NCBI GenBank assembly: GCA_902560245.1
Contig: CACELK010000007.1
Span: 1 to 64,000 of the forward strand
Source of the DNA: an uncultured Pelagibacteraceae bacterium
GTDB taxonomy: Bacteria > Pseudomonadota > Alphaproteobacteria > Pelagibacterales > Pelagibacteraceae
Direction of reading: 5' to 3'
DNA length: 64,000 bases
Shown: positions 23,469-27,182 of the stretch, piece by piece
How positions within the stretch are numbered: the stretch's first letter is position 1
Layout: each line of letters starts with the position of its first letter
The notes under the pieces: model-generated
The model's database searches: none
What the model saw: only the letters and a program-made list of their open reading frames with translations
Told to the model about the DNA's origin: nothing
Position numbers and translations under genes: made by a program

Positions 23469-24806
23469 ATGCCGAAGTATGTTAAAATAAATAAAAAAAT
23501 TAAGCCATTCAATAAAATAATAAATATACCAGGAGATAAATCTATTTCTATAAGATTTATATTAATGGCAGCGATAGCAGTTGGAAAATCAAAAGCTTAC
23601 GGATTGTTAAAAAGTGAAGATTGCAATGCGGCTCTCAAAGCTGTGACTAAACTTGGTGCTAAGGTTAAAATAGTTAAAAATTATACTGAAATAAATGGTC
23701 TCGGAATTAATGGATTATCATTTAAAAATAAGACAGTAATTAATTGTCAAAATTCAGGTACATTAATGAGATTAATTGGTAGTTTAGTTTGTGGAATAAA
23801 AAACTCAATTATCTTAATTGGAGATCATAGCCTTTCGCAAAGACCAATAAGAGTAATGGAACCTCTTAATCTATTTGGTGCAAATATTAAATCCAACAAA
23901 AATAAATTACCTTTAGAAATTGAAGGAACTAAATTTATTAGACCAATTGAATACAAAGAGACAAAGGGTTCAGCTCAAATAAAATCGTTTTGTTTAATAT
24001 CTGCTTTAAGTGCCCCAAAAAATTCTATATCAACTATTATCGCAAAAAGAAGTCGTGACCATACAGAAAAACTTTTTAAATACCTGAAGATTCCTATTAA
24101 GATTAAAAAAAAAGGAGAGTACGATTTTATTGAGGTTAAAGGTGGACACCAACACAATGGATTTGTTCAAGAAATACCAGGTGACATGTCAAGTGCATCT
24201 TTTTTTATTTGTTTAACTTTATTATCTAAAAATTCTAGTATTATAATAAAAAACGTAAATATAAATAAAACAAGAAGCGGAATAATTTATTTGGCAAATA
24301 AAATGTGTCCTTCCTCAATTAAATTTAAAAATAGAAAAATAAAGTATGGAGAAGAGGTTGCAGATATATACGTAAAAAGTGCTAAAAGTTTTAAAGCAAT
24401 TAATCCAAATCCACTAATTAGTAGTAAAGCAATTGATGAATATCCTTTAATTTTTTTATTAGCTTGTAAATCAAACAAAACTTCGTGGTTTAAAGGTATA
24501 GGAGAACTCGCCCTAAAAGAAAGCAACAGACTTAAAGTTTGTGCAAATTTTTTAAGACAAATTGGAATAAAAGTTATAGAAAAAAAAGATAGTTTAAAAA
24601 TTTCGGGTAACCCTAAACTCAAGATTAATAAGAAAATAGTTATTAAAAATTTTATGAAAGATCATAGAATATTTATGATGGCGTGTATTGCGGCACTTAC
24701 ATTTAATGGTACTGGAGAATGGTTTATAAATGATAAAGACTCAATTAAAACTTCTTTTCCATCATTTTTAAATATAATTAAAAAAGTTGGAGCAAAAATA
24801 AATTGA
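23469..24806 (+). CDS. aroA: 3-phosphoshikimate 1-carboxyvinyltransferase (EPSP synthase)
   Basis: AroA makes EPSP from shikimate-3-phosphate and PEP. The 445-residue protein opens with the PEP/substrate motif IPGDKSISIRFILMAAIA and has NSGTLMRLIGSL, QRPIRVMEPL, IPGDMSSASFFICL, the LALKESNRLK motif and the DHRIFMMACIAAL block. All are diagnostic. The stop overlaps the TTG start of cmk, a pairing common in proteobacteria. Together with aroK and aroB at 57-58.6 kb it covers several shikimate steps. Confidence 0.97.
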   Translation: MPKYVKINKKIKPFNKIINIPGDKSISIRFILMAAIAVGKSKAYGLLKSEDCNAALKAVTKLGAKVKIVKNYTEINGLGINGLSFKNKTVINCQNSGTLMRLIGSLVCGIKNSIILIGDHSLSQRPIRVMEPLNLFGANIKSNKNKLPLEIEGTKFIRPIEYKETKGSAQIKSFCLISALSAPKNSISTIIAKRSRDHTEKLFKYLKIPIKIKKKGEYDFIEVKGGHQHNGFVQEIPGDMSSASFFICLTLLSKNSSIIIKNVNINKTRSGIIYLANKMCPSSIKFKNRKIKYGEEVADIYVKSAKSFKAINPNPLISSKAIDEYPLIFLLACKSNKTSWFKGIGELALKESNRLKVCANFLRQIGIKVIEKKDSLKISGNPKLKINKKIVIKNFMKDHRIFMMACIAALTFNGTGEWFINDKDSIKTSFPSFLNIIKKVGAKIN

Positions 24807-25471
24807 AAAAAAAAAGTAACCTAATTACAGTAGCAATAGACTCACCAGCAGCAGCTGGTGCAGGTACACAAGCAAAGTTAATTGCAAAACACTACAACCT
24901 CCTTCACCTTGATACTGGGCGTATATACAGGCTTATAGGCAAAATTAAACTAGAAAATCCAAAAAAATTTAATATCTCTCTAATTAAAAAAAAAATTAAA
25001 AGTTTAAATATAAAAAAGTTACAAGATAAAAGTTTGCTCTCTGACAAAGTTGCAATCTCAGCCTCAATAATAGCAAAAGATAAAAAAATTAGAAATATTG
25101 TACATAAATTTCAGCAGAAATGTGCGTATACTCCTCCTATTAAATATTCAGGTTCAGTTTTAGATGGCAGGGATATAATTACAGTTCAAATGAAAGATGC
25201 TATGTTTAAATTTTTTATAACTGCTGAGCTTAAAACGCGTGCCAGAAGAAGATTTAGAGAATATAAAAATCTTGGAAAGAAGATTTCTTATAAAGATGTT
25301 ATAAAAAGCCTTAAAAATAGGGATAAATCTGATCGTTTCAGAAGATTTGGACCCTTAAAAAAAACAAAAGATTCAATATTGATTAATACAACTAAACTTA
25401 GTAGAAAACGTTGCTTTAAAAAAATTAAAGCTATTATGGATAGGAAATTAAGAGTTAATGGAAATTTATAA
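24803..25471 (+). CDS. cmk: Cytidylate kinase-like protein with altered P-loop
   Basis: CMP kinase normally transfers phosphate from ATP to CMP/dCMP. This 222-residue protein has the family order: P-loop at residues 14-22, LHLDTGRIYRLIG, LDGRDIITV, TARARRRFREY-like lid and SDRFRRFGPLKKTKDSILINTTKLS. The P-loop reads SPAAAGAGT where the family has GPAASGKGT. The ATP-binding lysine is alanine (codon gca) and the first glycine is serine. Translation starts at TTG 24803 overlapping the aroA stop, giving MKKKSNLITVAID. It is followed by rpsA (14-base overlap), the classic cmk-rpsA pair. Position and remaining motifs fix the family; full activity is uncertain. Confidence 0.88.
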   Translation: MKKKSNLITVAIDSPAAAGAGTQAKLIAKHYNLLHLDTGRIYRLIGKIKLENPKKFNISLIKKKIKSLNIKKLQDKSLLSDKVAISASIIAKDKKIRNIVHKFQQKCAYTPPIKYSGSVLDGRDIITVQMKDAMFKFFITAELKTRARRRFREYKNLGKKISYKDVIKSLKNRDKSDRFRRFGPLKKTKDSILINTTKLSRKRCFKKIKAIMDRKLRVNGNL

Positions 25472-27182
25472 AGAACTAAAATCACCCGCATCAAAAGAAT
25501 TCGAGAAATTACTTAATAGTCAGCTTTCAAAAACAAAAAATATCGTAGAGGGAAAAATTATTGACGGTAAAATAACCAAAATAACAGAAAAATTTGTATT
25601 TATTTTTATTGAGAATCTAAAAAGTGAACCAATGTTAGATATAAATGAATTAAAAAGTATGGGTTTGCAGGATAAAATTAAAGTAGGCGAAAAAATTTCT
25701 GTTTTGCTTGAAAGAATAGAAGATAAAAATGGTGAGGTAATCGTGTCTGCATCTAAAGCTCAAAAAATTAAAGGATGGGATAAGTTAGTTCAAGCATATG
25801 AAAAAAATGAACCTATAAATGGAAAAATTACTTCAAAATGCAAAGGTGGAGTAATAGTAGAACATTTGGATACTGGATCCTTAATGTTTTGTCCAGGATC
25901 ACAGATTTCGGATAAACCACTAAAAGATATTTCACATTTAATGAATGAACCTCTTAAATTTGCATTAATTAAACTTGATAAAGTAAGAGGCAATGCGTGT
26001 GTTTCTAGAAGACAAATTATTAATAACAATAAAAAAGGTGATAAAGCAAAAATAGTTGAAAAATATAAAGTGGGAGATGTTATAAAAAACGCTACCGTAA
26101 AAGGCTACAGCTCATTTGGATGTTTTTTTGATGTAAATTCTGAACTTGATGTATTAGTACATTTACAAGAAATAAGTTATTCTAGAGTTAATCATCCCGA
26201 TGAAGTTTTTAATATAGGTGAAAAACACGATTTATTGGTTATATCTGTTGATAAAGAAAAACTACAAGTAGGTTGCTCTATAAAACAATTATCTCCTGAT
26301 CCTTTCGAGCATATATCTAATTACGAACTGAATAAAAAATATAAAGCGAAAGTAGTTAAACTTATGGACTTTGGTGCTTTCTGCGAATTAGAGCCAGGTT
26401 TAAGCACTTTGTTGCACTCTAGCGAACTTAGTTATACAAAAAAAAATCCTTCCGCAAAAAAGATGTTTAAAATTGGTGACGAAATTGATGTGTGTATAAC
26501 AGAAATTGATAAAGACAAAAGAAGAGTTGCAGTTTCCTATAAATTAACAATGGAAAATCCTTACGAAGTTTTAGAAAAAAAATATCCAGTTGGTAGTGAA
26601 ATAGATGGAATTATAAGTAGCTCTAATGAATACGCAATTTATCTTAGACTTGGTGATTTTGATATTGATGGTTTTCTTCACTGCAACGATTTAAGTTTTA
26701 CAGGAAATCCTGAGGAGGAACTTAATAAATATAAAAAAGGTGATAAGCTTAAAGTAAAAGTTTTAGAAATAAAAAAAGACCAACAAAAAGTCAGAGTTGG
26801 ATTAAAACAAACTCAAAAAGATCCCCTTGAGTGGTTCAAAGGTAAAAATATAAATGACACAATTACTGTAAAAGTTATATCCTCAGACAATAAAGGTTTA
26901 ATTGTTAAACCGGAAGGATGTGAAATGAATTTTAATATTAAAAAATCACAAATAGCTATAAATGCTGCAGACTCAAGGCCTTCCAGGTTTGTTGGAGGAG
27001 AAAGAATTGACGCGGCTATAGCAGAACTAGATATGGAAAGAAGAAAAATAAGCCTAAGTATTAAGCTTTTAGAAGAGCTACAAAATAAGGAGGCTGTTAC
27101 CAAATTTGGATCTGAGGCTAGTGGAAAAAATCTGCCATTCAGCTCACTTTCTGATAAACTAAATAAAAAAACGAAGGAATAA
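25458..27182 (+). CDS. rpsA: 30S ribosomal protein S1
   Basis: S1 brings mRNA to the 30S subunit, which matters in an AT-rich genome with weak ribosome-binding sites. The 574-residue protein consists of about six S1 RNA-binding repeats. Domain 3 reads VGDVIKNATVKGYSSFGCFFDVN and domain 4 MDFGAFCELEPGLSTLLHSSELSY, with the later repeats near residues 370, 450 and 480 more diverged. The usual C-terminal Lys/Glu-rich tail is present. The order cmk-rpsA-ihfB is conserved in proteobacteria. Confidence 0.97.
   Translation: MEIYKELKSPASKEFEKLLNSQLSKTKNIVEGKIIDGKITKITEKFVFIFIENLKSEPMLDINELKSMGLQDKIKVGEKISVLLERIEDKNGEVIVSASKAQKIKGWDKLVQAYEKNEPINGKITSKCKGGVIVEHLDTGSLMFCPGSQISDKPLKDISHLMNEPLKFALIKLDKVRGNACVSRRQIINNNKKGDKAKIVEKYKVGDVIKNATVKGYSSFGCFFDVNSELDVLVHLQEISYSRVNHPDEVFNIGEKHDLLVISVDKEKLQVGCSIKQLSPDPFEHISNYELNKKYKAKVVKLMDFGAFCELEPGLSTLLHSSELSYTKKNPSAKKMFKIGDEIDVCITEIDKDKRRVAVSYKLTMENPYEVLEKKYPVGSEIDGIISSSNEYAIYLRLGDFDIDGFLHCNDLSFTGNPEEELNKYKKGDKLKVKVLEIKKDQQKVRVGLKQTQKDPLEWFKGKNINDTITVKVISSDNKGLIVKPEGCEMNFNIKKSQIAINAADSRPSRFVGGERIDAAIAELDMERRKISLSIKLLEELQNKEAVTKFGSEASGKNLPFSSLSDKLNKKTKE

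Follow-up and report, generated by a model that had tools for sequence, protein, structure and literature searches.

Cytidylate kinases without the P-loop lysine in a clade of Pelagibacteraceae: a rebuilt and probably active donor site?

Introduction

In the largest nucleotide-binding fold the lysine of the P-loop is the textbook catalytic residue, and in the classic adenylate kinase mutants its artificial replacement often destroys activity. What, then, is to be made of a cytidylate kinase (Cmk) whose gene encodes alanine at this position? The question is raised by a 64,000-nucleotide stretch of DNA (GenBank assembly GCA_902560245.1, contig CACELK010000007.1, positions 1 to 64,000; hereafter the window) from an uncultured Pelagibacteraceae bacterium, the source genome being a 1.06 Mb draft that is 84% complete. 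A first-pass annotation, made from the DNA letters without database searches, had correctly guessed a SAR11 origin for the window and had drawn attention to the altered kinase.

Pelagibacter is among the ocean's most abundant bacteria. Natural P-loops without the lysine are a known rarity. In a literature search outside which most subscription papers lay, we found none described for an NMP kinase or for SAR11, and no paper connecting SAR11 or Pelagibacter with an unusual Cmk P-loop.

Results

The cmk gene of the window

The gene encodes a lysine-less (d)CMP kinase of 222 amino acids (24803..25471, + strand). It lies between aroA upstream (23469..24806, +) and rpsA downstream (25458..27182, +), the two neighbours that mark the native locus, and thus in the aroA-cmk-rpsA position given by the first-pass annotation. 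The TTG start at 24803, from which residues are numbered here, overlaps the aroA stop (24804-24806), and rpsA overlaps the end of cmk.

The altered P-loop, D13-S14-P-A-A-A-G19-A20-G-T22, is encoded at 24839..24868 (+) by GAC TCA CCA GCA GCA GCT GGT GCA GGT ACA. Set against the canonical Cmk P-loop, D-G-P-x-x-x-G-K-[GS]-T, it carries two changes: a TCA codon (24842..24844, +) replaces the first P-loop glycine with Ser14, and a GCA codon (24860..24862, +) replaces the lysine with Ala20. The second of these was reported by the first-pass annotation as a departure from a normally required residue, and rightly so. The same loss is present in 118 of 118 clade sequences described below; the account was incomplete, however, in that the first glycine is also replaced by serine and the two changes always occur together.

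Membership of the cytidylate kinase family, also proposed earlier, is clear from Pfam Cytidylate_kin (PF02224), to which the protein scores 133.9 bits against a cut-off of 26. Against the NCBIfam cmk equivalog TIGR00017 it scores 133.3 bits, 2.2 bits short of the cut-off of 135.55, and as the score is just below this threshold the automatic annotation of cmk may differ between many SAR11 genomes. The P-loop pattern G-x4-G-K-x-[ST], with its invariant lysine, is missing, and S-x4-G-[AG]-G-[TS] is found instead in 118/118 sequences of the clade. An AlphaFold2 model of the window protein has a pLDDT of 91 (93-96 in the P-loop region), with a helix beginning at the lysine position, and its best PDB matches (Z 18-22) are all Cmk, bacterial Cmks being nearest (Z about 21). 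The window Cmk therefore resembles bacterial (d)CMP kinase (PF02224, TIGR00017; E. coli 1cke/2cmk) in predicted fold, full-length homology, CMP-site and lid arginines and aroA-cmk-rpsA locus, but differs from it in having Ala/Gly for the P-loop lysine and Ser for the first glycine. It also differs in a shorter NMP-binding region, where about 14 residues are absent, an absence common to the other SAR11 Cmks aligned.

Distribution of the lysine-less Cmk

The lysine-less Cmk was found in 32 of 60 same-genus relatives plus the window genome (29 with Ala and 3 with Gly), and Ser14 in 32/32; the genus of these relatives, g1, is taken to be GTDB Pelagibacter, of SAR11. Two further Cmks, L073 (genome G047) and L079 (G054), fall outside the 32, their contigs ending inside a lysine-less-like cmk. 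In addition, 80 loci from a separate collection were all lysine-less and all had Ser14, although the patterns used for that scan contained the Ser14 stretch, so that it favoured Ser14 sequences. Some genomes are probably common to both sets; L128 and L052, for instance, come from contigs of equal length.

Together with closed genomes, the 32 genomes and 80 loci make a full set of 118 sequences, 117 of them distinct. Position 20 is Ala in 110, Gly in 8 and Lys in none, and is encoded by all four Ala codons and by GGA, while Ser14 is present in 118/118, through both TCN and AGY codons. That the 32 genomes and 80 loci carry the same change through such varied codons shows that it is not a sequencing error. 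The serine and the loss of lysine are coupled, in that the lysine-less clade always has Ser14 and lysine-containing sequences always have Gly there. The first-pass annotation had pointed to lysine in related genomes as a possible sign of error or of a local mutation. This fails across the lysine-less clade and, because Lys is absent from the whole clade and the gene is under purifying selection (see below), a local mutation or a dying gene was rejected.

A degenerate DNA motif of the altered P-loop was present in 186 of 399 genomes of the genus and its reversed control in 0, which indicates that the altered P-loop is not a matter of chance. In an order-wide sample the motif occurred in 103/198 genomes of the genus and 0/99 genomes of other genera; outside the order it was matched in 2 of about 380 alphaproteobacterial genomes, which is the control rate, neither match lying in a Cmk-scored frame. 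The lysine-less Cmk is found in about half of the Pelagibacter species sampled. A general decay of P-loops in SAR11 was considered and, for adenylate kinase, rejected, since its motif GPPGAGKGT is intact in three genomes.

Origin of the clade

The lysine-less proteins group together as a single clade in the Cmk trees, with a support of 99/99 in one and 99/97 in another. The sister of this clade is a single protein of another genus, g9 (L234, support 100/95), whose gene lies between aroA and rpsA and whose P-loop, D-A-T-A-G-S-G-S-T-S, is also without the lysine, with Ser in its place. The Cmks of genus g6 keep the lysine of GPAASGK and share with the lysine-less clade a local insert, AYxPPKxFxGSxLDGRD, and from this the lysine was probably lost within this lineage.

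Two other Cmk variants were observed within Pelagibacteraceae. In the g9 genome G519 (L234/L244) the DATAGSGSTS P-loop is accompanied by a change of LDGRD to LNGRD and by an altered PL motif; this Cmk may have changed or decayed further, and a pattern made for the variant matched only G519 among 297 family genomes. In L221, L224 and L227-L230, from genera g5 and g7, a single frame of 657-669 amino acids encodes AroA with Cmk joined to its C-terminus, and we take these fusions to resemble known bifunctional aroA-cmk proteins.

Exchange with lysine-containing Cmks

Pelagibacter has two further Cmk types, 'DGS' and 'DGE', both with the lysine. The DGS Cmk is found at the native aroA-rpsA locus and the DGE Cmk away from it, in at least three different neighbourhoods. 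In 12/12 DGE genomes in which both aroA and rpsA could be located, the gap between these genes is 81-206 bp and cmk is absent from the slot. Each of these 12 genomes, with a readable slot from which cmk has been lost, has a lysine-containing Cmk at another site. With the native slot empty, the reading of the DGE copies as paralogues that accompany the native gene was abandoned. No single genome was seen to carry more than one full-length Cmk above the family cut-off. In a tree of aroA plus rpsA, a quick tree with long-branch warnings, the Cmk types are interspersed and well-supported branches force at least five changes of the lysine-less label. The Cmk types seem to replace each other, and the simplest reading of this is that they serve the same function. 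A protein that the cell can spare would be lost too, but there would then be no need for another Cmk to be present wherever it is lost.

The DGE Cmks (L033, L034, L044, L045, L048, L051, L061, L063, L069, L071, L072, L075, L081 and L039) keep the P-loop lysine and mostly have Ala at K136 and R146 (E. coli K144 and R154), residues that are conserved elsewhere. Some of their genes adjoin a CoA-transferase and an RNA polymerase omega-like gene and others a nucleotide-sugar dehydrogenase-like gene, names which come from reading the sequence only.

Selection and the active site

For lysine-less cmk the median dN/dS (Nei-Gojobori) is 0.15 over 5439 pairs, many of them non-independent and some with synonymous distances near saturation, which points to purifying selection. 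The median protein identity of the lysine-less Cmk is 64%, against 57% for AroA in the same genomes, and Cmk has the higher value in 333/378 pairs. The loss of the lysine is thus kept across a clade under purifying selection, the mark by which we compared it with natural lysine-less P-loops of the Kti12 K14L kind, discussed below. Within the loop G19, G21 and T22 are kept in the 118 sequences, except that T22 is Ser in one; the P-loop Thr/Ser equivalent to T22 adjoins the phosphates and Mg2+. Position 20 is never T, V, P, D, E or S, the single-step neighbours of GCN codons towards which a free position would drift.

In the 32-sequence alignment ten residues never vary (R43, R97, R123, D124, R146, R149, R150, R173, D177 and R180), and the eight arginines among them are invariant in all 118. 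The ten align, in order, with E. coli R41, R110, R131, D132, R154, R157, R158, R181, D185 and R188, most of which we take to bind CMP or donor phosphates. In the window R123 and D124 lie in the invariant L120-DGRD motif (25160..25174, +), and R173, D177 and R180 in the invariant lid/CMP-site segment (25319..25342, +). Position 88, which aligns with E. coli S101, is occupied by Ser in >90% of the sequences, and the equivalent of E. coli S36 is Thr, as it is in the Cmks of S. aureus and S. pneumoniae. The set of CMP-site and lid residues by which we judged a Cmk, with their presumed roles in E. coli (S36, R41, S101, R110, R131, D132, R157, R181, D185 and R188), is in this way retained.

When the 118 lysine-less Cmks were compared with about 50 that contain the lysine, the donor site of the clade was marked by Ser14, Ala/Gly20, Gly21 and, in most sequences, Ala18, at a position usually occupied by Ser in relatives. 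Near the P-loop the comparison revealed no invariant basic residue that is new and peculiar to the clade, and the invariant basic residues of the clade are already present in lysine-containing relatives.

Search for a substitute kinase

The search for a substitute covered Cmk, the ADK family (in G012) and PPK2. No second PF02224 gene over the cut-off was present in the closed lysine-less genomes G012, G122, G443 and G425. A single ADK-family gene, with a normal P-loop, was found in G012, and no PPK2 in G012, G122, G443, G425 or G000. Within these families, nothing was found to support the suggestion of the first-pass annotation that another kinase does the work.

Discussion

The loss of the P-loop lysine from this SAR11 Cmk is confirmed, and is a much stronger observation than was originally claimed. 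As only Ala or Gly is found at position 20, and always with Ser14, a small residue at 20 together with Ser14 appears to be what selection keeps. We consider it likely, on evolutionary evidence only, that the lysine-less Cmk is the cell's active CMP kinase with a rebuilt P-loop. On this hypothesis GPAASGKGT would have been rebuilt to SPAAAG[A/G]GT once, in the forebear of a single Cmk clade of the Pelagibacteraceae, and the rebuilt enzyme would still phosphorylate (d)CMP at the expense of a nucleoside triphosphate. The donor phosphates would probably be held by the backbone amides of the P-loop and the helix dipole, with T22 acting with Mg2+ and the Ser14 hydroxyl perhaps helping, while the invariant lid and CMP-site arginines would take over the charge compensation of the lysine; as the AlphaFold2 model is ligand-free, these phosphate contacts are guesses. 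More tentatively, and with somewhat less than even confidence, we suggest that this is a stable SAR11 family of NMP kinases in which phosphoryl transfer proceeds with no P-loop lysine and no substitute lysine, through backbone amides, Ser14 and lid arginines.

There are precedents. A whole clade of Eurotiomycetes Kti12 has a natural Walker A K14L and is still active, although in the Chaetomium protein K14L raises the ATP Kd to 25 uM from 1.5 uM in the wild type and an artificial K14A is nearly inactive (PMC7363723). As in SAR11, the loss is clade-wide, in a kinase-fold enzyme and without a compensating lysine; however, Kti12 has Leu rather than Ala/Gly, is an ATPase rather than an NMP kinase and is coupled to a long linker, and its activity has been measured whereas the SAR11 Cmk is known from sequence. 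If Kti12 K14L is a guide, the rebuilt Cmk should bind ATP less tightly (a higher Km). In mycobacterial dephospho-CoA kinase (CoaE), K14A keeps about 81% of kcat (2.34 vs 2.89 per min), and the authors suggested that a lid-side arginine compensates (PMC3019153). This is a Lys to Ala change at the same P-loop position of a P-loop kinase, but an engineered one, with measured activity. A role for lid arginines would also fit the description of P-loop kinases as reliant on lid Arg/Lys fingers (PMC9599734). In view of CoaE K14A and Kti12 K14L, and even with Kti12 K14A nearly dead, the earlier statement that loss of the lysine usually kills activity was too strong.

Some points nevertheless stand against an active kinase: artificial Lys to Ala changes often destroy activity, the sequences compared appear to hold no clade-specific replacement lysine, and replacement by another Cmk also fits a merely dispensable protein.

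One alternative is that a relocated basic residue, as in WNK kinases, fills the place of the lysine in a protein that is still a CMP kinase. The first-pass annotation had supposed that one of many Lys/Arg might substitute, but this is only weakly possible, given the lack of a new clade-specific invariant basic residue near the P-loop. The candidates are K187 (Lys/Arg in 118/118), K186 (99%) and K189 (98%) of the segment PL-KK-T-K-DS, which follows the lid/CMP-site arginine R180. However, K187 is also Lys in DGE, g5, g7 and g8, and K189 in g6, DGS, g5 and g7, all lysine-containing relatives, and K186 and K189 have exceptions, so none of the three arose with the loss of the lysine. Moreover, the segment would point away from the end of the sheet that carries the P-loop, running into the beginning of strand 5. 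In the deviant Walker A of the phage Mu gp28 terminase, from which the signature lysine is absent, a lysine six residues upstream has been proposed to compensate (PMC7363723), but the SAR11 clade has Ser14 there. We regard relocation as unlikely.

It is improbable, too, that catalysis has been lost or is minimal and that the protein is now a CMP-binding sensor, chaperone or partner, with another enzyme phosphorylating CMP. The usual requirement for the P-loop lysine, the intact CMP site and the replaceability of the gene in several lineages would agree with this, but the donor-side R149, R150, R173, R180 and T22 are kept too, and G012 has no second Cmk, ADK-family or PPK2 gene as a substitute. 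Furthermore, lineages without the native Cmk carry a lysine-containing one, as expected if a CMP kinase function was replaced. The new role proposed in the first-pass annotation is unsupported, and an active CMP kinase, not a repurposed protein, is likeliest.

A change of donor, in which the rebuilt P-loop uses GTP, pyrophosphate or polyphosphate and the lysine has become unnecessary, would account for an altered donor loop beside an unaltered acceptor site; it is very improbable, as no change is seen in the lid arginines, the usual contacts of the NTP, and nothing indicates a particular donor. Finally, an artefact of sequencing, assembly or contamination, or a local dying gene, might be feared of a window from an 84% complete draft, but was rejected and has a negligible probability, the change being common to closed genomes and to those from single cells and metagenomes, with varied synonymous codons and under purifying selection.

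The Cmk described here, which we favour as an active CMP kinase, is a metabolic NMP kinase whose loss of the lysine has persisted through a hundred-odd lineages and of which the closed genomes show no second copy, and it offers natural material on what the lysine is for, with lysine-containing sisters of the same small enzyme (the g6, DGS and DGE types) as ready controls. Either the rebuilt site can do without the lysine or the protein has taken on another role and, if the former is true, the Walker A lysine would not be a chemical necessity for NMP kinases. There is also a warning for annotation, in that a rule by which a protein with no Walker A lysine is called inactive would strip about half of Pelagibacter of its CMP kinase.
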